The notes under the pieces: generated by a model
Told to the model about the DNA's origin: nothing
Database searches by the model: none
The model's input: only the letters and a program-made list of their open reading frames with translations
Made by a program: the position numbers and the translations under genes
DNA from: a virus
Reading direction: 5' to 3' (one strand)
DNA length: 27,066 bases
IMG/VR virus record: IMGVR_UViG_3300017987_000308
Coordinates: 1-27,066 of that record
Shown here: in pieces, positions 1 through 21,256 of the stretch
Numbering within the stretch: the first letter of the stretch is position 1
Layout of the letters: every line of letters starts with the position of its first letter

Positions 1-753
1 CATACTGAGCATCTTGACTCGTTCCGTCGCCAGTGGCTTGCACAGGCCGCAGGAGTAAACGGTTCGTTCAAAACACCCATCATGGCTTTCGATGGTGACC
101 TTCAGTGGATACCTCTTAGTCAGACCAACCGAGATATGGAGTACCAGCTTTGGCTGGAATACCTTATCAAGGTTGTATGCTCGATCTACTTGATCGACCC
201 GGCAGAAGTGAACTTTGATCTACGTGGTGGAGTAACGAACCAAGCACCGATGTTTGAGACATCGAACGAGTCAAAGCAAAAGCTTTCTCGTGACCGTGGT
301 CTTGCTCCTCTGCTCCGTTTTCTTTCAGCAAAGATCAACAAGTACATCGTCCATCCTCTCAATGAGGATATGGAACTTGAGTTCGTAGGACTCGATGCAC
401 GTACTCCTCAGGAAGCTTTGGATATGCGTGTGCGTGAAGTCGGTAGCTATGAGACCTTGAACAAGGTACGCAAAGACGCCGATCCTAACGCGGAAGACAT
501 CGAACACGGTGACATCCCCTTGAACCCTGTCTACATCCAGCTTCTTCAGATGAAGCAGATGGAAAAACAAATGGCCCAAGGCATGGGTGAAGGTGGAGAA
601 GAAGGTGAGATGGAAGAGGGTGGAAGTCCTGAAGACGAGATGACCGCTCTTGCTGGTGAGATCGGTGGAGATATGGGTAAAGCCCTTGCAGATCTTCACA
701 AAGGTCTCTCAGAAGTTCGTGAATCATACGAGGAGCTTGAGGTAGAACTGTGA
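1..753 (+). CDS. Portal protein, C-terminal part (5' end outside window)
   Basis: The reading frame is open from the first base, so this is the last 250 residues of a longer protein; the internal ATG at 82 is not the true start. The segment LIDPAEVNFDLRGG, followed by a long helical region, resembles the C-terminal half of HK97-type portal proteins. These form the dodecameric ring through which DNA is packaged and ejected. The last 70 residues are rich in Glu, Gly and Met (GEGGEEGEMEEGG), a low-complexity acidic tail that probably faces the capsid interior. The gene order that follows (MuF-type protein, prohead protease, major capsid protein) is the standard context for a portal. The next gene overlaps its stop by 4 bases, suggesting translational coupling. 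The family call is firm; the N-terminal clip and wing domains cannot be seen here. Confidence 0.88.
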   Translation, partial: HTEHLDSFRRQWLAQAAGVNGSFKTPIMAFDGDLQWIPLSQTNRDMEYQLWLEYLIKVVCSIYLIDPAEVNFDLRGGVTNQAPMFETSNESKQKLSRDRGLAPLLRFLSAKINKYIVHPLNEDMELEFVGLDARTPQEALDMRVREVGSYETLNKVRKDADPNAEDIEHGDIPLNPVYIQLLQMKQMEKQMAQGMGEGGEEGEMEEGGSPEDEMTALAGEIGGDMGKALADLHKGLSEVRESYEELEVEL

Positions 754-1595
754 ACAACGCAGTTTCCTTAGACCATAAGCAGAAGCGTTCCAGCTTCAAA
801 GAGATCACCCTACGTAACTTGCATCGTCCATCGTTGCGAGAGTACGAGGGTGAGCAATTTATGTCTAAGCACACTACGATTCCAGAACTCCTTGAGTTCC
901 TTCGTAAGGTTCCAGCAGAACACCTCAAAGGTATCCGCAGGATCGATATCAGTAACAAGATGAAGTCGTATCCTATCGGACACTACTCAGACACACCCAA
1001 CTACTTGGAAGCACTGAAGAGGGAAGGTCGAACAGAGGCGTTGATCCTTGGTTCGTATGATCCCGACACCAGAGTTATTACCCTTACCTGTGGACTTGAA
1101 CATCCTCAGGTCGAGTGCGACTTTGAGTGGGTGGTCTTTCATGAGATCTGCCATCACTACATGAACTACATGGACCCCCGTATCCTGAAAGCCTACGCAT
1201 CACTTGTTCGTGGGCATACGGATATGGGTTATGGTGGGCTGAACCCGGAAGAGTCATTCTGTGAAGCCTACGCCGCGTACCTGACAGGTGGTGTCCTGAT
1301 CGCGGAGGTTCGTGAGTTCATGCGAAAGATCGTGTTCAAGCACGAAGAGAACGAGATCATGGCAAAGAGCTTGCCTGTCTACGATGACTTCTTCAAAGCT
1401 GTCAATGTGGATCGAAAATGTACTGCCAAGCTTCCGGTAAAGCTCCGGGAGTCAGAGTATCCTGTTGTGCAGGGTATCGAGAAGGAGTGGATCAAGGACT
1501 ACCAAAGCACGCTACTTGCCATGGCTCAGGAGATCCTTGAGGTCGTTACTCCACAAGAGAATATAGATGAAGATGAAGAGGAAGAGGACGACTGA
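750..1595 (+). CDS. Putative zinc metallopeptidase (HExxH) in the head gene cluster
   Basis: 281-residue protein with a canonical zincin motif, HEICH at residues 131-135, preceded by a hydrophobic strand (FEWVVF). Downstream is an acidic helix (NPEESFCEAYAAY, residues 165-177) in which Glu168 or Glu172 could be the third zinc ligand, a gluzincin-like layout. The C-terminus is a run of Asp/Glu. Start: GTG at 750 overlaps the portal stop by 4 bases (GTGA) with GAGGT upstream. An alternative is ATG at 861, which removes 37 poorly structured residues. It lies between the portal and MuF genes, so it could be an internal head protein that processes head components or is ejected with the DNA. That role is inference; only the motif and position are seen. 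The dedicated prohead protease is a separate gene at 3778. Confidence 0.72.
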   Translation: MNNAVSLDHKQKRSSFKEITLRNLHRPSLREYEGEQFMSKHTTIPELLEFLRKVPAEHLKGIRRIDISNKMKSYPIGHYSDTPNYLEALKREGRTEALILGSYDPDTRVITLTCGLEHPQVECDFEWVVFHEICHHYMNYMDPRILKAYASLVRGHTDMGYGGLNPEESFCEAYAAYLTGGVLIAEVREFMRKIVFKHEENEIMAKSLPVYDDFFKAVNVDRKCTAKLPVKLRESEYPVVQGIEKEWIKDYQSTLLAMAQEILEVVTPQENIDEDEEEEDD

Positions 1596-3430
1596 TGTTT
1601 GCAGGACTTACTGCTGATCAGATATACAAGATCGAAGAGATCATCCGCATGCACCACTGGGCGTTTATCGCAAACACAGTAGGTCGCGAGTATGTTCCTG
1701 AAGAGATCTTTGCAAACTTGGTTTCTAGGGGACTCATAAATAAGTCCTCTAAAGCCTTGCTGAAAAAGGTTGTTCAGTTTGGAGATATCGTAGAAGAGGT
1801 AGGCAGAACACAAGCGGTAAAGCTGTCCTATGCTCAGTTCAAAGCCCTCCTGCGAAAGATGCCTGAAATAACTGAACTTCAGAAGATGGCTGTAGCCTAC
1901 CTTTCCAAACAAGCGGTATCGAGTATCCGTAAGATGTCGAGAAAGGTAGAGGATGGTCTTGCAGAGGCCGCGACCAAGGCAGCACGTCGAGAAAGAACCG
2001 TAGAGATTGCCAATGCTACAGAAGGCTACATTACCAGTGCGAAGAAGGTGAGCGCACGGATGCTTGCAAACGACTTGGCAAACGAGTTCGGTGGGTATGC
2101 CAAGGACTTCCGCAGAACCGCAGTCACAGAGGTACACAACGCTGTGCAGCAAGGCGTTGCTTCGACCATGCGTAGCAAGTACGGAAACGACATAGACGTA
2201 ATCAAGCTTCCTGCCCCAGACGCGTGTTTTCCGGCAGGGGTATGTGTTTACACAAAGACCGGAGTTGTTCCCATAGAAGACATAAAAACCGGGGATGTGG
2301 TTCTGACCCACAAACTAAGATGGAGGAAGGTGGTAGGGGTATCTAAGCGAGAGTACTGTGGTGGTATTACTACTATACAGTCAGGAGGGAGATCCGTTAC
2401 GGCTACCTCTAATCACCCTTTTCTTTCTGGGATGAACTGGGTTGAGGCCAAGTCGGTCAAGTACGGTGATGAGGTAGTCACACTCACTGGAATCCTCGAT
2501 ACGGATGAGTATCCATCCCCTATCACGGAGAAGCCGTTCTTTTTTGATATCCCTCTTTCTGGTTGCCCCGGAGTAGTGCCAGCTTCCCCGATCCATCTCT
2601 ACCGCGATCTTCTCGGAAGGGATAGCGATATCGAGGTTGTAGATATCGAAGGCAAATTCGGGAACAAGTTCTTGGGTAAGGTAGGGAGACAGGTTAGAAA
2701 CCAGATCCTTGGTATCATCCGTCATGTGAGATCTACTGTTCATTTTTGTACGGGCTTTTTTACGAAGGGCTTGGGGAGAGATGGCCTTAGCTCTAGCCTT
2801 TCGTGCATTCTCAGTAAGACTTTTCCTTTGTTCTTTTGTCATGCTCGCCATGCGTGCGGCTTGAGTGGTACGGGTGTCTTTCAAGGGCACCCCTTCGGCT
2901 TCAAGCCGTGTCCTAATGGTGTGGTGGGTGACCCCGTATTTTCTAGCAAGAGAACAAAACGATGCAGAAGTCGTCGTGTATTCTTTAGCAATCTTTTTCA
3001 TAGGGAGAGTCTTCTTCAAGGCAGGCATGGTGTATCCTCCACTAAAAGGGTTCTTCGGAGTGTAAACTGCCGGACACATAAAGTCAAGTCCTCTGTTTCA
3101 GGAAGCTTCGAGGGTGTTGTATACAACTTATGCGTGGAAGAAGATGAGAGTTACTTTGCGAATGGGATAGCTGTTCACAACTGTCCCTATTGCAAGCTTC
3201 TGTTCCTTGATGACAACGGAGAACCAAAGGTCTTCAAACTGTCCAAGATAGAGGGTAACTCAAACATCGGTAGAAAGGCCGGAAAGCCTGAGCCGGGAAA
3301 GACCCAGTGGCTCCCTACCGTGGATGCAGTACACCCTCATTGTAGGTGCCAACTGATCCGTATCCCCAAGGGGTGGGAGTGGGACAGCAGTATCGGTACG
3401 ATCCGTCCTAAGAAGAAAGCGAGAACCTAG
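1595..3430 (+). CDS. MuF-type phage minor head protein precursor interrupted by an intein
   Basis: 611-residue precursor. Residues 1-210 and 530-611 make a continuous MuF-like (head morphogenesis, SPP1 gp7-like) protein of 292 residues. It has a helical N-terminal domain, the motif FRRTAVTEVHNAVQQG near residues 171-186, a CPYC motif at the splice junction, and the family's C-terminal signature HPHCRC (precursor residues 584-589). Members sit on or near the portal inside the head and are needed for infectious particles. Residues 211-529 are an intein inserted exactly before the Cys of CPYC. The ATG at 1595 overlaps the previous stop by one base. Residues about 305-500 read as low-complexity, Phe/Ser/Arg/Cys-rich filler because that DNA codes for a protein on the other strand. 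Without splicing the CPYC/HPHCRC fold would be split, so activity probably depends on splicing. Confidence 0.88.
   Translation: MFAGLTADQIYKIEEIIRMHHWAFIANTVGREYVPEEIFANLVSRGLINKSSKALLKKVVQFGDIVEEVGRTQAVKLSYAQFKALLRKMPEITELQKMAVAYLSKQAVSSIRKMSRKVEDGLAEAATKAARRERTVEIANATEGYITSAKKVSARMLANDLANEFGGYAKDFRRTAVTEVHNAVQQGVASTMRSKYGNDIDVIKLPAPDACFPAGVCVYTKTGVVPIEDIKTGDVVLTHKLRWRKVVGVSKREYCGGITTIQSGGRSVTATSNHPFLSGMNWVEAKSVKYGDEVVTLTGILDTDEYPSPITEKPFFFDIPLSGCPGVVPASPIHLYRDLLGRDSDIEVVDIEGKFGNKFLGKVGRQVRNQILGIIRHVRSTVHFCTGFFTKGLGRDGLSSSLSCILSKTFPLFFCHARHACGLSGTGVFQGHPFGFKPCPNGVVGDPVFSSKRTKRCRSRRVFFSNLFHRESLLQGRHGVSSTKRVLRSVNCRTHKVKSSVSGSFEGVVYNLCVEEDESYFANGIAVHNCPYCKLLFLDDNGEPKVFKLSKIEGNSNIGRKAGKPEPGKTQWLPTVDAVHPHCRCQLIRIPKGWEWDSSIGTIRPKKKART
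2381..3028 (-). CDS. Antisense homing endonuclease (HTH + Vsr/EDxHD-like) inside the intein
   Basis: 215-residue protein on the strand opposite to the intein that contains it. Residues 23-46 (SFCSLARKYGVTHHTIRTRL) look like a helix-turn-helix that would bind target DNA. Residues 60-105 form a basic linker. Residues 118-195 look like a Vsr/DUF559-type PD-(D/E)XK nuclease: FDIYNLDIAIP, then IAVEMDRGSWH, then RD (159-160), then RGWILIRIE. Candidate metal or catalytic residues are Glu124, Asp128 or Asp133, Glu144, Asp146, His151 and Asp160. This matches the EDxHD homing endonuclease family (I-Bth0305I-like) known from phage introns and split inteins. The ATG at 3028-3026 was chosen over the upstream in-frame start because GTGGAGG lies 7 bases before it. 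The sense strand is open throughout and in register. Family assignment is by eye and was not confirmed by a search. Confidence 0.82.
   Translation of the reverse strand: MPALKKTLPMKKIAKEYTTTSASFCSLARKYGVTHHTIRTRLEAEGVPLKDTRTTQAARMASMTKEQRKSLTENARKARAKAISPQALRKKARTKMNSRSHMTDDTKDLVSNLSPYLTQELVPEFAFDIYNLDIAIPSEKIAVEMDRGSWHYSGATRKRDIKKERLLRDRGWILIRIEDSSECDYLITVLDRLGLNPVHPRKKRVIRGSRNGSPS
3035..3042 (-). promoter_or_regulatory. Shine-Dalgarno of the antisense endonuclease gene
   Basis: Read on the minus strand this is GTGGAGGA, followed 7 bases later by the ATG at 3028. It is one of the best ribosome-binding sites in the window and sits in DNA that, in the sense direction, is only intein filler. 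It decides the start (MPALKK) and argues that the antisense frame is translated. Confidence 0.75.
3059..3087 (-). promoter_or_regulatory. Sigma-70-like promoter for the antisense endonuclease gene
   Basis: On the minus strand, TTGACT (3087-3082; 5 of 6 to the -35 consensus) is separated by exactly 17 bases from TACACT (3064-3059; 4 of 6 to TATAAT). Transcription would start near 3052 and leave a leader of about 24 bases before the start codon. Position and spacing suit an independent promoter, but a match of this quality can arise by chance; no experimental support is visible. Confidence 0.5.
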
Positions 3431-3646
3431 ATGCGTCAACAGCGGTTCAAGTGCGCCCACTGTTCGGAGAATATCGTAAAGTCGTTCGATAACGGAACCG
3501 TGAAAGTCTGGTCGAAAATCTTGATCTTCCAGAACGGTCGGTGCTTCGCAAAGTGCATAAATTGCAAGGAACTTACACAAATTCCTGTGGTTTTGGGCGG
3601 GAAGTTCTGCTCGGAAAAGTTGGTAGTCCCCAAGGACAAGAAGTGA
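3431..3646 (+). CDS. Small zinc-ribbon protein (Com-like)
   Basis: 71 residues starting at the base after the MuF stop codon. It has two Cys pairs, CAHC (8-11) and CINC (42-45), with an extra Cys38, separated by a strand-rich spacer: a zinc-ribbon pattern. Size and layout resemble the Com translational-regulator family of phage Mu and small zinc-ribbon proteins often found beside phage head genes. Its place at the end of the portal-MuF operon, just before a promoter and terminator, would fit either a regulator or a small head accessory protein. No clear RBS precedes it, so it is probably translated by coupling to MuF. Function unproven. Confidence 0.6.
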   Translation: MRQQRFKCAHCSENIVKSFDNGTVKVWSKILIFQNGRCFAKCINCKELTQIPVVLGGKFCSEKLVVPKDKK

Positions 3647-3655
3647 AAACCCCTC

Positions 3656-3684
3656 TTGACACTTTCCGTAAACTATTGTACTTT
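3656..3684 (+). promoter_or_regulatory. Sigma-70-like promoter upstream of a terminator
   Basis: TTGACA (3656-3661, a perfect -35) is followed after exactly 17 bases by TACTTT (3679-3684; weak -10, 3 of 6). It is intergenic, between the zinc-ribbon gene and the prohead protease gene, where few other promoter-like sequences exist. Transcription would start near 3691. The weak -10 may mean that a phage activator or modified polymerase is needed. Confidence 0.5.
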
Positions 3685-3690
3685 GGGGAT

Positions 3691-3762
3691 ATACGAGGGA
3701 TAAGACGTTCAACTGGGGAACGACATCTGGCAGGGAAACCTGTAGGGTCGTTCCCCTTTTTT
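3691..3762 (+). ncRNA. Possible small RNA or attenuated leader between promoter and terminator
   Basis: A transcript from the promoter at 3656-3684 would end at the terminator at 3757-3762, giving an RNA of about 72 bases. No open frame starts inside it with a ribosome-binding site. Its 3' half folds into a long stem (GGGGAACGAC with GTCGTTCCCC) enclosing a small GAAA-tetraloop hairpin (CAGG GAAA CCTG). It may be a discrete small RNA, a leader whose read-through controls the capsid operon, or a coincidence of a weak promoter and a normal operon terminator. Confidence 0.35.
3715..3762 (+). terminator. Rho-independent terminator after the portal-MuF operon
   Basis: GGGGAACGAC (3715-3724) pairs perfectly with GTCGTTCCCC (3747-3756), followed by six T (3757-3762). 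Inside lies a second hairpin, CAGG-GAAA-CCTG (3731-3742), capped by a GNRA tetraloop. It separates the portal/MuF group from the capsid group. Confidence 0.82.
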
Positions 3763-3777
3763 AGTGAGGTCTGATAC

Positions 3778-4614
3778 GTGGAACTTGTAGATCACTCCTT
3801 TGAGTTTTTCATGCCCGCCGGTCTCACTAAGGGCCACAAGGTAAAGACAGAGTCAAATCCTCTGACGGACTGGCGTGTCGGCGGTGTCGCGTCAACCGAA
3901 GATCGTGACCTTGAGGGTGAGCGTATCATGCAGAAGGGCATCGACCTTTCGTACATGAACTCGGGGTGGGGGGTTTTCAACTGGAATCACGAAAAGGGGC
4001 CGCAGAACCTTCTTGGTCCCATCGACTATATCGAGAACCTCAGAAAAGGTCTTTGGACAGAAGGATACCTCTGGAAGCACAAGCCGACAGCACAAGAAGT
4101 ATTTGGTATCCTCAGTAGTGTTCCTGAAGGTGAGAAGTCGCCTTTGGGTTTTTCTGTTCAGGGAAAGGTCCGGGCAAGATCAGATAACGGTAACATCGCG
4201 AAGTGTCTTATCCGAGAAGTAGCGATCACCCACTGCCCAGTCAACCAAGCAACCTACACCGATCTCCTCAAGACCTTTGAAGACGACTACGTCTGTGAGA
4301 CGCCCAATGCCGAACACTGTTCGTGTCCTGCATGCGTAGCGAAGGCTCTTGAAGTGACTCATGCCAACCCGCCGATGTCTGGTGGGGATGTTCTTCGGGC
4401 AGAGTCCCTTGAGTGTGATATCAAAGACAAGAAGAAAAAGAAAAGGCGTAAACGACGTTCCATCGTTGAACTGACTGATGGGATGGTCGCGAAAAGCATA
4501 ACCAAATCGCAAGTTGTGGAGCTTGTGCAGTCACGGAGGCCCGAATATACGAGGGCAGCGGCTGAACGTTTCGTAGAGTGGCTGTTTGCCTACACAAGAG
4601 AAGGAGTCTTCTAG
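3778..4614 (+). CDS. Prohead (capsid maturation) serine protease
   Basis: 278 residues. The N-terminal 165 resemble the HK97 gp4 / herpes assemblin-like prohead protease: WRVGGVASTEDRDLEGERI, then GVFNWNHEKG with catalytic His71, then SPLGFSVQGKV with nucleophile Ser126, then REVAITHCPVN. It would cleave the scaffold and capsid N-terminus inside the prohead. The C-terminal third is unusual: a Cys cluster (CSCPAC, 181-186), a 24-residue segment (189-212) that closely matches the major capsid N-arm, a Lys/Arg-rich stretch (217-227) and a helical tail. Start is GTG at 3778 with GTGAGG about 10 bases upstream, the first codon of the conserved reading frame. Scaffold and capsid genes follow, as expected. 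Confidence 0.9.
   Translation: MELVDHSFEFFMPAGLTKGHKVKTESNPLTDWRVGGVASTEDRDLEGERIMQKGIDLSYMNSGWGVFNWNHEKGPQNLLGPIDYIENLRKGLWTEGYLWKHKPTAQEVFGILSSVPEGEKSPLGFSVQGKVRARSDNGNIAKCLIREVAITHCPVNQATYTDLLKTFEDDYVCETPNAEHCSCPACVAKALEVTHANPPMSGGDVLRAESLECDIKDKKKKKRRKRRSIVELTDGMVAKSITKSQVVELVQSRRPEYTRAAAERFVEWLFAYTREGVF
4342..4413 (+). repeat. Capsid N-arm-like segment in the prohead protease
   Basis: Codes for protease residues 189-212, with KAL, then ANPP, GGDVLR and ESLE. 18 of 24 residues are identical to major capsid residues 34-57 at 5773-5844. The DNA is clearly diverged at third positions, so the similarity is kept at protein level. Confidence 0.8.
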
Positions 4615-4859: not shown

Positions 4860-5642
4860 ATGCGTTGGAAGCGTAAAGATGATCTCTTCAAGAGTCAGGA
4901 TGCAGAGGAAGAGGTTGAAGAAGAGGAAGTCGTAGAGGATGCCGAGGAAGAAGAGAAGTCGGTTGACTCTATTGACGTTTATGATCTCGATAAGGCCCTG
5001 AGCCGCGTTGATGCTCTGATCAAGGGTGGCGACGAAGAGATGGAAGAGGACGAAGAGGAAGAAGAGGAAGAGGAAGAGGAAGAGGAAGAAGAGTGCGGGA
5101 CCACCAAAAAGATGCGTGGTGCCAAGAAGAGTCTCGATGTTGTGTCGAAGTCGTTCGCTGATGAGAGCATTCAGGAAGGTGTCGATGTATCGAACTTTCT
5201 GGAAGCGATCACCACAGGTATCACTGATAGCCTGTCGGCGTTTGAGAGCGGCCTGAACAAGAGCATCGATGACCAAGAGTCTTTCAACCTTGAAGTCGTG
5301 AGCGCCGTTTCGGAACTCGCGAAGTCGGTGAAGGGCCTCAGTGACATTGTGAAGTCGTACGGGGACGGCTCCGACGATGTTCGCAAGAGTGTGGATAAGG
5401 TTTCGGATGTGGAAGTCATCGAGAAGAGCGCAGACAGCGAGCAGAACGACTCGCAGGGTGCGACTGACATGACTCTGGCCGACCTCTCCAAGGGTCTGGA
5501 TGCGGCATGGGCCGATGGCGAGGGTGACCCCGCCGCTGGTGCTGCAATCCTCGAACTGGAAGCTACCCGGAAGGTTTCTGCCCCGATGGTAGCGTTGGCA
5601 AAGAGTGGTCTGAAGAAGCTTGACGCTTCCAAGACCGAGTAA
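4860..5642 (+). CDS. Acidic putative capsid scaffolding protein
   Basis: 260 residues, very acidic. Residues 15-33 and 59-78 are almost pure Glu/Asp, including an unbroken run of about 15 Glu. The rest is predicted helical with Ser/Asp/Lys-rich segments (KSLDVVSKSF, SAVSELAKSVKGLSDIVKSYG). Position between the prohead protease and the major capsid protein, charge and helical character fit a scaffold that is degraded by the protease at maturation. Homology is not recognisable, so the call rests on position and composition. RBS GGAG at 4848-4851. Leu codons are mostly CTG/CTC, as in the capsid gene, suggesting high expression. Confidence 0.65.
   Translation: MRWKRKDDLFKSQDAEEEVEEEEVVEDAEEEEKSVDSIDVYDLDKALSRVDALIKGGDEEMEEDEEEEEEEEEEEEEECGTTKKMRGAKKSLDVVSKSFADESIQEGVDVSNFLEAITTGITDSLSAFESGLNKSIDDQESFNLEVVSAVSELAKSVKGLSDIVKSYGDGSDDVRKSVDKVSDVEVIEKSADSEQNDSQGATDMTLADLSKGLDAAWADGEGDPAAGAAILELEATRKVSAPMVALAKSGLKKLDASKTE
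5034..5093 (+). repeat. GAA/GAG low-complexity tract (poly-Glu)
   Basis: Near-continuous GAA/GAG codons encode residues 59-78 of the putative scaffold. The mixture of GAA and GAG keeps the DNA from being a perfect microsatellite, but the length is a likely slippage site. Confidence 0.85.
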
Positions 5643-5673
5643 GTCGCAACTCTAATAGAGGAGAAAAACTGCG

Positions 5674-7056
5674 ATGTTGTTTCAAGGTGAACAGAGTTTT
5701 GTTGGTGTGAACGACTATGCCAACATTCAGGGTTTCGGCGTTGCTTCGCCGGAAGAGGTCGCTGACCTGAACAAAGCCCTGAGTGTCGGTTACGCGAACC
5801 CTCCCACCACTGGTGGTGATGTTCTGCGTGTTGAGAGTCTGGAAAAGACTCTGAAGGTCGTCACGTTCGAGATGAAGCATCTCAAGATTTGGCCCAAGGT
5901 CACGAAGGCTCCGGCCTACTCGACCGTGGAAGAGTATAACCGCCTGAATGCCTACGGTAACGTGGACGCTGGTGGTTTCTTTGCTGCTGGTGGTCTTCCT
6001 GAGACTCAGGATACCAACTACAGCCGCGAAACTGCGCTGGTGAAGTACCTCGGTACGACCCGCGAAGTTCAGCACCCGGCGACTCTGATCAAGCCGGCCA
6101 ATGGCGACGTGATCTCGCTGGAAACCAAGAACGGCACGATGTGGCTGCTGAACAAGATGGAACGGTCCATGTTCTACGGCAACGCCACCAACAACGCTCT
6201 TGAGTTCGACGGTCTGGAACAGCTTGTTCCCGCTGCGAACGTTATCGACCTTCAGGGCAACAGCCTGACCGAGGGTGATATTGAGCGTGCTGTGAACGTG
6301 GCTGCTGAGAACTACGGTGTGCCTTCGGACCTGTTCCTTGGTCTGAAGAACATGTCGGATCTGGTTCGTACGTTCTATCCGAAAGAACGCTACAACCTTC
6401 CGGCTCCCAGTGGAAGCACTGTCGGTCTGAACGTGACTTCGTTCATGTCGCAGATCGGCCCGATTCAGTTCAACCCCGATGTCTTCATCACCCCCGGTGG
6501 TGTAAGCTCGCAGATCGGTGCCCCGCCTTCGGCTGCTACCAGCCCGAATGCTCCTGCGGCTCCGACCGTTGGTGCGCTGACTGTCAACGCGGTTACCACT
6601 GGTAGCCTCACGGCTGGCGACTACGCATATCAGGTAACTGCCGTGAACGCGAGTGGTGAATCGGCTCCGACCGTCATCACGGCTAACTCGACTGCTGCTG
6701 CGAACAACACCATCGATGTCCCGATCACGAAGGGTGCTGGTGCAGATCCTCTGTACTACCGCATCTATCGTCGGGATAACGATGATGCCAGTGGTGCGCT
6801 GTTCGTCACGAATGTGAAGTTCTCGGCTTCGCCGCAGACTTGGGTTGATACTGGTGCGACTATCGCGGGTACGCGGACTGCGTTCCTCCTGCCGATGTCT
6901 CCCGATATCTACCAGGTCAAGCAGTTGGCTCCGTTGATGAAGATGCCCCTCGCTGTTGTGAGTGCGTCTTATCGCTGGATGCAGTTGCTTTACGCGGTTC
7001 CGATTGCGTACCAGCCGACCAAGCTCGTCATGTTCAAGAACATTGGCGAACTGTAA
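5674..7056 (+). CDS. Major capsid protein with an Ig/FN3-like domain
   Basis: 460 residues. The N-arm carries ANPPTTGGDVLRVESLEKTL (41-60), followed by TFEMKHLKIWPKVTKAPAYSTVEEYN, the pattern of HK97-fold major capsid proteins of myoviruses. The body includes TALVKYLGTTREV (120-132), GDIERAVNVAAENYG (201-215) and the C-terminal LMKMPLAVVSASYRWMQLLYAVPIAYQP. Residues about 293-403 form an inserted beta-rich domain (TAGDYAYQVTAVNASGESAP, YYRIYRRD) typical of a fibronectin-III or Ig-like fold, which would decorate the capsid surface. RBS GAGGAG about 12 bases upstream of the ATG. Codons are strongly biased (CTG Leu, AAC Asn, ATC Ile), as expected for the most abundant protein. A strong terminator follows. 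Confidence 0.9.
   Translation: MLFQGEQSFVGVNDYANIQGFGVASPEEVADLNKALSVGYANPPTTGGDVLRVESLEKTLKVVTFEMKHLKIWPKVTKAPAYSTVEEYNRLNAYGNVDAGGFFAAGGLPETQDTNYSRETALVKYLGTTREVQHPATLIKPANGDVISLETKNGTMWLLNKMERSMFYGNATNNALEFDGLEQLVPAANVIDLQGNSLTEGDIERAVNVAAENYGVPSDLFLGLKNMSDLVRTFYPKERYNLPAPSGSTVGLNVTSFMSQIGPIQFNPDVFITPGGVSSQIGAPPSAATSPNAPAAPTVGALTVNAVTTGSLTAGDYAYQVTAVNASGESAPTVITANSTAAANNTIDVPITKGAGADPLYYRIYRRDNDDASGALFVTNVKFSASPQTWVDTGATIAGTRTAFLLPMSPDIYQVKQLAPLMKMPLAVVSASYRWMQLLYAVPIAYQPTKLVMFKNIGEL
5773..5844 (+). repeat. N-arm segment shared with the prohead protease
   Basis: Codes for capsid residues 34-57, the counterpart of the protease segment at 4342-4413 (18 of 24 residues identical). In the capsid protein it lies directly before the conserved start of the HK97 fold. 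Confidence 0.8.
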
Positions 7057-7075
7057 AGACTGGTTGTTCGTTCTG

Positions 7076-7113
7076 GGCACATGGCGGGAACCCTCCTGCC
7101 ATGTGCCTTTTTT
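7076..7113 (+). terminator. Strong rho-independent terminator after the major capsid gene
   Basis: A 13-base-pair stem (7076-7088 with 7095-7107, including one G-U) with a six-base loop, followed by six T (7108-7113). It would limit transcription beyond the capsid gene. An apparent ATG at 7101 lies within its 3' arm and is not used as a start. Confidence 0.9.
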
Positions 7114-19012: not shown

Positions 19013-20725
19013 ATGGCGAGGTACTTCAATGGCAAGCTGGTAAAGCTGCCCCAAGCGGTGAGCTATATCGATGATAGTGCTCTTCGTGCTGGGGGTGCTG
19101 TTGGACTGAACGCAGTAGCCGTGCTTGGTGTGTCTACTGGTGGTCAGCCGAACACTCCCCTTCTTTTCAGTGATCCCGCTACGGCAAGCCGAATCCTCCG
19201 TAGTGGTGTTCTCCTTGAAGGTGTAAAGAACGCCTTCGATGCTTCGGTAAACGGTGGCGCACCCCTTGTCTACGCTCTGCGTGTCAACCCTGCGGTACAG
19301 TCAAGTCTGACTCTTGTGGATGGTGCTGCGGCAGACGTGATCGATCTTCTGGCTGATGACTACGGTGTGTACACTAACGGCATTCAGATCAAGATCGAGG
19401 CTGGGTCTAACATCGGTAAGAAGATCTCGGTCAAACTCGATGGTGAAGTCATCGTGAAAGACGATGTTGGTGAGTACGCCTTCAGTATTCAGTATACAGG
19501 TGCTGGTAGTGCGGCAACGATGACTATCGATGCAACCACGTTGGCAACCACGGTTACGGCTGGTCCCGGTGGAGAAGATCTCAGTCTTACTTTGGCTGAC
19601 TATGAGTCGTTCAACGCTCTTGCCGAAGCGGTAAACGTTGCTGCTGGTGGCGCTTACACTATGGCTGTTCTGGCTAAGGATGGTACGACCGCTCCAAACG
19701 AGATGGACTACGCCACTGGTCAGGACATCAAGACTGGCGTGTATTCTCATACCCAGAACTTGAAAGCTATCGTAGAGTACCTGAACGGGACGGAAGTTCC
19801 CTTCATCGGTGCAACTCGTAAGAGCGCAGTTGGTACGTTGCCCGCGAACATTTCCTACACGCCTTTTACGGGTGGTAGCGAAGGTTCTGTAACCAACACC
19901 AATTGGCAGAATGGTCTTGACGCTCTCAAGGAAGTTCACTGCAAGCTGGTGGTTCCGATGACTGGGGATGCGACTATCCATGCGATGGCCGATGCCCACG
20001 CTATCGACATGAGTGACGCGGACGGCAAGAGCGAGCGTAGGGCTGTGGTTGGTGGCATTGCAGGAGAGACCGTGGCACAGGCAGCGGCTCGTTCGCAGCT
20101 TATCCAGTCTCACCGTACGGTGATTTGTTATCCGGGGATCAAACAGGCGAACGATATCACGGGTGTGGTGGAAACGCGTGCCCCGTTCTATCTTGCTGCT
20201 GAGATCGCTGGTGCGTCTCTTGGTGTTGGTATTGGTGAACCGCTGACCAACAAGTCGGTTCGGGCACTTGGTCTGGAAACGGACATCACTCGTGCTGATC
20301 GGATCACCTTGCAGGATGCGGGTGTGTGTTGCATCTACTACAAAGAGAACGGTGGTTATGTCGTCAACAAGGGCATCACTACTTGGACTGCTGATGACAA
20401 ATACAACAAGGTAGAGATCTCCACTGGTATGGCTTCCGATGAGGTAGCCTATCAGGTACGTGAGGCTCTTGAGGCCGCGTTGGTTGGTCAGAAGAACAGC
20501 CCTTCTCTTCTGGTTGAGGCTGCATCGATTGTCGAATCGCAGTTGAAGGCCGCTCAGGCAAACGGGTTTATCGTTGGTGATCGTACGTTGGGTATCCCTG
20601 CGTACAAAAACATCCAAGTTGAAGCGAGCGGTGATACCGTTTACGTCAGCTTTGAGATGTCTCCGGCTATCCCCGCAAACTTTATTCTCATCACGGCACA
20701 CGCCAAGCCGTTTGAGACTGTCTAA
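19013..20725 (+). CDS. Contractile tail sheath protein
   Basis: 570 residues. The N-terminal FNGKLVKLPQAVSYIDDSAL and GVSTGGQPNTPLLFSDPATA resemble the start of phage sheath proteins. The C-terminal third carries the sheath domain motifs AGASLGVGIGEPLTNKSVRA, RITLQDAGVCCIYYKENGGY, KGITTWT and PAYKNIQVEAS. Sheath subunits stack around the tail tube and shorten on infection, so the virion is a myovirus. RBS AGGAGG about 14 bases upstream of ATG 19013, with AGGTG closer. The tail tube gene follows 12 bases after its stop, as in most myoviruses. Confidence 0.92.
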   Translation: MARYFNGKLVKLPQAVSYIDDSALRAGGAVGLNAVAVLGVSTGGQPNTPLLFSDPATASRILRSGVLLEGVKNAFDASVNGGAPLVYALRVNPAVQSSLTLVDGAAADVIDLLADDYGVYTNGIQIKIEAGSNIGKKISVKLDGEVIVKDDVGEYAFSIQYTGAGSAATMTIDATTLATTVTAGPGGEDLSLTLADYESFNALAEAVNVAAGGAYTMAVLAKDGTTAPNEMDYATGQDIKTGVYSHTQNLKAIVEYLNGTEVPFIGATRKSAVGTLPANISYTPFTGGSEGSVTNTNWQNGLDALKEVHCKLVVPMTGDATIHAMADAHAIDMSDADGKSERRAVVGGIAGETVAQAAARSQLIQSHRTVICYPGIKQANDITGVVETRAPFYLAAEIAGASLGVGIGEPLTNKSVRALGLETDITRADRITLQDAGVCCIYYKENGGYVVNKGITTWTADDKYNKVEISTGMASDEVAYQVREALEAALVGQKNSPSLLVEAASIVESQLKAAQANGFIVGDRTLGIPAYKNIQVEASGDTVYVSFEMSPAIPANFILITAHAKPFETV

Positions 20726-20737
20726 GGAGATTGATCG

Positions 20738-21196
20738 ATGGCACGTCCCAACATCAAGACCCATCACGGTAACCGCGTAGTCGTGAAGATCGATGACCAG
20801 TTCGTCGGTCTTTTGCAGAACGTTCGGTTCAATGATGACTACTCCCCCGAAGCGATCTCGGGAGTGGGTGATATCCATGTGCAGGAGCATGCTCCTACCA
20901 TGGCTCGCCACACTGCGGGTGTCTCTTCGATGGTGCTTCGTAAGAAGAACATGGTCGCTCTTGGTATCTACCCTGAAAACGGGGATGAGATGCTGAAAGG
21001 TCTGATCTTCGATATCGAGGTATTCGATAACACGGTTGGTGCTACCCCGACTCTTCTCCGTAAGATCATCGGGTGTACTTTTTCTGGTGGTTCCATCGAA
21101 GTTGCCAAGCACACTGTTTTCGTCAGTGATGCGAACTTCATGGGGATCGATGTGTCGGGTACGGTTACTGGGAATGATATTTCCGAAACCGCGTAA
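20738..21196 (+). CDS. Tail tube protein
   Basis: 152 residues, directly after the sheath. GNRVVVKIDDQFVGLLQNVR, the acidic DDYSPEAISGVGDI, HTAGVSSMVLRKKN and ILRKIIGC-like strands are the pattern of myovirus tube proteins (gp19/XkdM fold), which stack as hexamers to line the tail. RBS AAGGAG about 9 bases upstream. A terminator follows within 15 bases, so sheath and tube form the last part of a highly expressed unit. Confidence 0.82.
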   Translation: MARPNIKTHHGNRVVVKIDDQFVGLLQNVRFNDDYSPEAISGVGDIHVQEHAPTMARHTAGVSSMVLRKKNMVALGIYPENGDEMLKGLIFDIEVFDNTVGATPTLLRKIIGCTFSGGSIEVAKHTVFVSDANFMGIDVSGTVTGNDISETA

Positions 21197-21201
21197 CCCG
21201 T

Positions 21202-21256
21202 GGAGATAACTCCGATCTCCTGAGTACCGCAAGGGAAAGGGGGATCGGAGCCTTTT
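21202..21256 (+). terminator. Terminator after the tail tube gene, with a competing hairpin
   Basis: CTCCGATC (21210-21217) pairs with GATCGGAG (21243-21250); the stem can extend through 21221 with 21239 using G-U pairs, and it encloses a CC-GCAA-GG tetraloop hairpin, followed by CCTTTT. An alternative stem, GGAGAT (21202-21207) with ATCTCC (21215-21220), uses three of the same bases and excludes the full terminator. The T-tract is short, so read-through into the chaperone and tape measure genes is likely. Confidence 0.72.

Follow-up and report, generated by a model that had tools for sequence, protein, structure and literature searches.

Large bifunctional inteins of the PI-SceI type combine a Hint splicing domain and a homing nuclease in one mobile element, the nuclease being an in-frame domain of the same protein. 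The element described here unites the same two parts, but its putative nuclease is a separate protein of another fold that is encoded on the opposite strand. It was found in a viral contig (IMG/VR record IMGVR_UViG_3300017987_000308, positions 1 to 27,066), and this whole stretch of 27,066 nucleotides is what we call the window. EDxHD nucleases are known as free-standing genes. I-Bth0305I and the other EDxHD/Vsr-like homing endonucleases have, like the window nuclease, a Vsr-type fold with an invariant Asp and an invariant Glu. However, I-Bth0305I is named in the PDB as a mobile intron protein, whereas the gene in the window lies antisense within an intein and shares its codons. Fractured genes with split inteins, reportedly described by Dassa in 2009, carry a free-standing EDxHD gene between the halves of a split host gene. 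The nuclease class is the same and is tied to intein halves, as the window nuclease is to its intein, but there the host gene is split, while in the window intein and host gene form an unbroken sense frame.

Another comparable case is ShiLan, in which an out-of-frame HNH homing nuclease is found in an insertion that stays open in the frame of the host gene (PMC11855218). Here too a homing nuclease is concealed in an overlapping frame and the host frame is kept open, although ShiLan-type insertions have an HNH nuclease on the same strand and no splicing domain, and the window has an antisense EDxHD nuclease in a true intein. A bioRxiv preprint of 2025 by Gosselin, Arsenault and Gogarten (10.1101/2025.01.02.630785) reportedly deals with actinobacteriophage inteins of “non-canonical architecture”, in the words of its title. 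Given this title, and since PMC11855218 cites the preprint for overlapping frames, it may describe inteins whose nucleases are encoded in other frames, perhaps those of the Gordonia phages discussed below among them. Its subject is actinobacteriophages, whereas the class described here is also found in phages of Salmonella, Klebsiella, Pseudomonas, Vibrio and Haemophilus and in metagenomic phages. The parts of the element (Hint domain, EDxHD nuclease and homing) are all known. For an antisense nuclease inside an intact intein we found no clear precedent in the literature searched; Gosselin 2025 may describe part of this two-strand arrangement.

The MuF-like gene and its intein

The sense frame at 1595-3430 is a single open ORF in which host gene and intein are unsplit. 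Its features are the following.

1595..3430, plus strand: MuF-like minor head protein gene, interrupted by an intein (ORF; the spliced protein aligns over the joint with uninterrupted phage homologues)
1595..2224, plus strand: N-extein (junctions, alignment with homologues)
2225..3181, plus strand: intein of 319 residues, Cys211 to Asn529, then Cys530 (Pfam Intein_splicing, TIGR01443, junctions)
2225..2494, plus strand: N-terminal half of the Hint domain, intein residues 1-90, blocks A and B (AlphaFold pLDDT 93-98; Foldseek matches to mini-inteins)
2399..2422, plus strand: Hint block B, TATSNHPF, opposite the nuclease tail, RVIRG in frame (sequence)
2513..3055, plus strand: stretch facing the nuclease, its sense translation predicted to be a disordered linker, intein residues 97-277 (pLDDT about 40 for the most part)
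3062..3181, plus strand: C-terminal half of the Hint domain, blocks F and G, VVYNLCV ... ANGIAVHN (AlphaFold pLDDT 96-98)
3182..3427, plus strand: C-extein (junctions, alignment with homologues)

The host protein contains two-cysteine motifs, PDACPYC and HPHCRC, which speak for the MuF-like assignment. An intein starting at Cys211 and followed by Cys530, with recognizable Hint blocks, had been proposed in a sequence-only reading of this DNA, and profiles, junctions and structural models all agree with it. The match to Pfam Intein_splicing (E=9e-9) is slightly short of the curated cut-off, and that to TIGR01443, the intein C-terminus, passes its own (E=1.6e-6). The signature residues are Cys1, T61/H64 (TxxH), VYNL and a terminal HN followed by Cys530. 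The AlphaFold model of the intein is confident at residues 1-90 and 280-319 only, which together make a complete Hint fold, and in Foldseek it matched the Mtu RecA mini-intein with a TM (target) of 0.77. Sequence and model together indicate that the intein at 2225-3181 is complete and that its host is a MuF-like minor head gene, and splicing is predicted. The same reading had described a mini-intein devoid of an in-frame nuclease. Accordingly with that description, Pfam, TIGR and PHROG-type profile searches of the ORF at 1595-3430 found no endonuclease family in the sense frame, and where bifunctional large inteins carry their nuclease in frame, in the same polypeptide, the sense middle is here modelled as disordered.

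Regarding the neighborhood, the ORF upstream of the MuF gene (750-1595, plus strand) has a HEICHH metallopeptidase-like motif and is without a Pfam or PHROG match. Immediately 3′ of the MuF gene, a small cysteine-rich ORF (3431-3646, plus strand) recalls Com of phage Mu, with weak zinc-ribbon matches only. No DNA similarity of the window to phages was found.

The antisense nuclease gene

On the opposite strand of the intein we identified the following features.

2381..3028, minus strand: putative antisense homing-endonuclease gene, 215 aa, ATG 3028-3026, stop 2383-2381 (Pfam, AlphaFold, family profile)
2897..3001, minus strand: predicted helix-turn-helix of the nuclease, residues 10-44 (AlphaFold helices, structural HTH matches; Pfam HTH families in relatives)
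2441..2728, minus strand: predicted Vsr/EDxHD-type nuclease domain, residues 101-196, with D133, E144 and H151 (structural matches, invariant residues)
2384..2440, minus strand: C-terminal tail of the nuclease, sharing its DNA with Hint block B, pLDDT <50 from residue 201 (AlphaFold; both strands constrained here in relatives)
3036..3040, minus strand: Shine-Dalgarno GGAGG, 7 nt before the nuclease ATG (sequence)
3059..3087, minus strand: weak promoter-like match TTGACT-17-TACACT upstream of the nuclease, by count no better than chance

This ORF has two candidate starts, at 3079 (232 aa) and at 3028 (215 aa). Because only the second ATG has a good Shine-Dalgarno (GTGGAGGATACACC-ATG), the 215-residue version is preferred, which is also the one first read from the letters. 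Searches for an antisense promoter and terminators in the window gave matches at chance level. The sequence-only reading had supposed that the nuclease is expressed independently of splicing and of the late operon, for which the window offers this weak promoter-like match alone, next to the ribosome-binding site. The protein had been read as a helix-turn-helix (HTH) plus a Vsr/EDxHD nuclease core, and this assignment held. It matched Pfam REase_MTES_1575 (E=2e-8) and a PHROG of homing endonucleases, and the profile of its family matched in the PDB 3hrl (5e-7) and I-Bth0305I (3r3p, 2e-5). It was the family profile alone that succeeded there; phmmer with the single window nuclease against the PDB gave no match below 0.5. 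The AlphaFold model, built with 62 sequences, has a mean pLDDT of 88.7 and is composed of the HTH, a helical linker, the Vsr-type domain and a tail (201-215) that falls below 50. The top Foldseek match of this model was again I-Bth0305I 3r3p (prob 1.0, with an E-value of just 5.7e-3), and VIA structure comparison gave Z values of 9.8 for the I-Bth0305I catalytic domain, 9.4 for 3hrl and 8.4-8.7 for Vsr. D133 and E144 are invariant in 62 sequences. By homology and model, the antisense protein is an HTH plus EDxHD/Vsr-type putative homing endonuclease.

The window copy retains D133, E144, H151 and the HTH, and at position 107 has a Lys, adjoined by Asp108, in place of a Glu found in 89% of the relatives. 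This Glu is likely the first E of EDxHD, and the window copy may be weakened. The Lys could also mean that a once-active nuclease gene is now decaying as a passenger of a mini-intein fixed in the window phage, to which can be added that its Shine-Dalgarno lies away from block F, unlike in most relatives. We find such decay rather unlikely, as the frame is intact, the catalytic residues and the HTH are kept, the model is confident and the codon usage still favors the antisense strand (0.196 against 0.043 for the sense strand, over the nuclease middle only), with the sense frame open as well. The window copy may still be active.

The length of the antisense ORF was rejected as evidence, because other genes of the window keep that register open over as many as 473 codons. 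Such long phase-0 antisense frames, common in the window and without homologues, favor the idea that the intein alone is real and that the frame opposite to it is open just because TTA, CTA and TCA are rare, and conserved via the sense protein. The major head gene and the tail sheath gene each face a very long antisense ORF (5563-7080 and 19301-21232, both minus strand). These two ORFs have no PHROG homologue, are probably shadow frames, and provide a useful negative control. Within the window nuclease itself the avoidance of stops is weak (P=0.04). Close relatives of the window copy are limited to three contigs, all identical, and for this reason the selection figures given below come from other relatives. 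The support for a real antisense gene is thus homology, recurrence and selection, and not ORF length.

Recurrence and selection in related phages

By tblastn, relatives of the nuclease were found opposite annotated MuF-like genes in the Gordonia phages Vivi2 and Malisha. A three-sequence alignment used as query retrieved 80 loci from viral contigs, and 74 distinct viral-contig loci were examined (L004, L093 and L094 included). In 72 of the 74 the nuclease was antisense inside a fully open sense frame, always in one codon-aligned register, and Hint block B was recognizable in nearly all of these. L004 (22% identity, unrelated context) was excluded from the nuclease-intein class. In L058 the nuclease relative (match at 3001-3294, plus strand) is antisense in a Hint-containing frame (1584-4358, minus strand) in another codon register, possibly an independent origin. 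Among phage records, 128-131 had nuclease relatives, most of them of Salmonella, with others of Gordonia, Pseudomonas, Klebsiella, Vibrio, Acinetobacter, Haemophilus and Edwardsiella. All ten records inspected in detail had the nuclease antisense to the head gene or intein-bearing gene present there, and nine had no antisense gene called over it (one calls a short unnamed ORF). In an eleventh, Acinetobacter IME285, the nuclease frame itself is annotated, and the record ends near it and the sense context is not visible. A scan of genome contigs gave just two loci, and a sample of 369 genomes of the class of L096 gave one clear match and two weak ones without a Hint motif. Some sense proteins, for example in L011 (3578-5200, minus strand) and L009 (797-4045, minus strand), contain a recurrent motif DFHGD located opposite the nuclease catalytic motif VAVEV-G, so that what looks like a sense motif is probably a shadow cast by the active site of the antisense protein.

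The place of initiation is also conserved. In 47/63 loci the antisense start is opposite the His of the block-F motif H-V-Y-D/N-L-Q, and in many of them a Shine-Dalgarno GGAGGT lies opposite Y-D/N-L-Q. A Shine-Dalgarno match of at least 4 bases was found in 47/63 loci, compared to 18% of control antisense starts. Codon choice in the sense motif points the same way: the block-F His is CAT (ATG in antisense) in 38/47 cases versus 36/106 in exteins (p=7e-8), and the Leu is CTC in 39/58 versus 25%. Judging from these sequence counts, most relatives clearly have a dedicated ribosome-binding site on the antisense strand. The start of the window nuclease sits further inside than this block-F start and has its own Shine-Dalgarno.

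The sequence-only reading had proposed a composite element of mini-intein and antisense nuclease, which the recurrence bears out, but it had pictured its origin as a one-off invasion. Since free-standing EDxHD genes exist, a mini-intein of the window phage might recently have been invaded by one of them. We consider this very improbable, as the register is the same in 72/74 relatives, the start is fixed opposite block F, and Hint and nuclease distances are correlated (Mantel r=0.63, p=0.0005). All three indicate that the two-strand arrangement is old, and it is widespread. The correlation also exceeds that between extein and nuclease (0.47), indicating that Hint and nuclease travel together.

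Signs of selection come from close pairs of Gordonia phages. Over the extein and the N-terminal Hint half, the ratio of variation at third and first sense positions (p3/p1) was between 3 and 32, but over the nuclease it fell to 0.50-0.71 in 5/5 pairs, so the free position there is the antisense third position. In other words, the stretch where the periodicity of substitutions changes from the sense to the antisense frame coincides exactly with the nuclease. In these pairs both strands had changed little in the part of block B that faces the nuclease tail. An OLGenie-like count gave an omega-like ratio of 0.20-0.35 for the nuclease in the closest pairs, the constraint on the sense frame being weaker. 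At Barsten gp15 (L012 2588-3208, minus strand) there is an antisense ORF unrelated to the Vsr type, in an intein that shares its MuF insertion site with that of Vivi2. This ORF matches PHROG 5046 (1.7e-15) and the LAGLIDADG I-MsoI (6e-4), and in the Barsten pair the substitutions by sense position (44/4/9) follow the antisense frame as well. Finally, we counted the Leu and Ser codons of the nuclease that would give stops in the sense frame (TTA, CTA and TCA), with the expectation taken from extein usage. Across the family there was none among 1534 Leu/Ser codons versus 207 expected, a very large deficit, even though related sequences are not independent. The sense frame had been said to have stayed open; it has, but not by mere persistence, since stops are avoided. 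In the relatives, therefore, the antisense frame is under purifying selection and sense stops are avoided.

Because the register is codon-aligned, part of the antisense conservation follows automatically, which is the remaining point in favor of a shadow ORF. However, such a shadow would not explain that codon-position variability tracks the antisense frame over the nuclease, in Barsten included, that independent nuclease families match the antisense protein, that its confident model shows a known nuclease fold, in contrast to a disordered sense middle, or that a Shine-Dalgarno, a start and biased codons are located opposite block F. Taken with these, an antisense frame that is only a shadow appears extremely improbable.

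Site polymorphism and a proposed two-strand homing intein

The EVIN-CRC site of Gordonia phages is found in three states. It is empty and contiguous in many phages (~94% identity); the Vsr-type element is inserted there in Vivi2, Fosterous, Affeca and Angelicage, and Barsten, Nordenberg, Sitar, Lennon and others have a different one. The insertion site of the window (PDA-CxxC) is uninterrupted in five MuF homologues (L019, L049, L071, L079 and L096), in which a related intein occupies the second of the cysteine motifs, HPH-CRC, instead. The MuF subfamily of the window has two intein sites within one protein. The sequence-only reading had suggested looking for the MuF gene without its insert in related phages; these five provide it, but a near-identical intein-free allele of the window phage was not found, only identical occupied copies and distant empty ones. 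The evidence of mobility stems from the relatives and not from the window phage.

The antisense protein might have a role other than homing, such as the exclusion of related phages or the regulation of the head gene by antisense transcription. Its HTH could bind near the head genes, and antisense transcription over a late gene could alter its expression. Still, the closest solved relative of known role is a homing endonuclease (3r3p), the nuclease sits in a mobile element with a polymorphic site, and in Barsten an unrelated nuclease of homing type occupies the same antisense place. We take a non-homing role as improbable.

We think it very probable that the window contains a dual-strand homing intein, with one strand of the DNA encoding the splicing function and the other the homing nuclease. 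The sense product would be a mini-intein, with about 130 structured residues and a long disordered loop, that would excise itself from the precursor of the MuF-like head protein. The stretch antisense to the loop and to part of block B would be expressed, from its own ribosome-binding site, as an HTH plus EDxHD/Vsr-type endonuclease. This nuclease would be specific for intein-free MuF alleles, cutting them at the insertion site, and recombination repair would copy the whole element into the cut allele, completing homing. On balance, we also favor a wider proposal, namely that homing inteins of this design form an ancient and widespread class, and that nucleases of two unrelated kinds (EDxHD/Vsr and LAGLIDADG-like) both came to lie antisense, codon for codon, under a splicing domain, with the ribosome-binding site and start of the nuclease opposite a conserved intein motif, and one DNA segment selected as protein on both strands.

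Standard annotation misses such antisense genes, despite relatives in 128-131 records. The MuF intein of a Mu-like prophage of Methylococcus capsulatus was reported in 2004 to contain no endonuclease (PMC517821). Inteins reported in this way may carry one on the other strand, and that of Methylococcus is a candidate. The class is a natural and many-times-replicated case of long antisense protein overlap in which selection can be measured on both strands, and for the phages it would represent a homing element in which the dose of the nuclease need not track that of the host protein.
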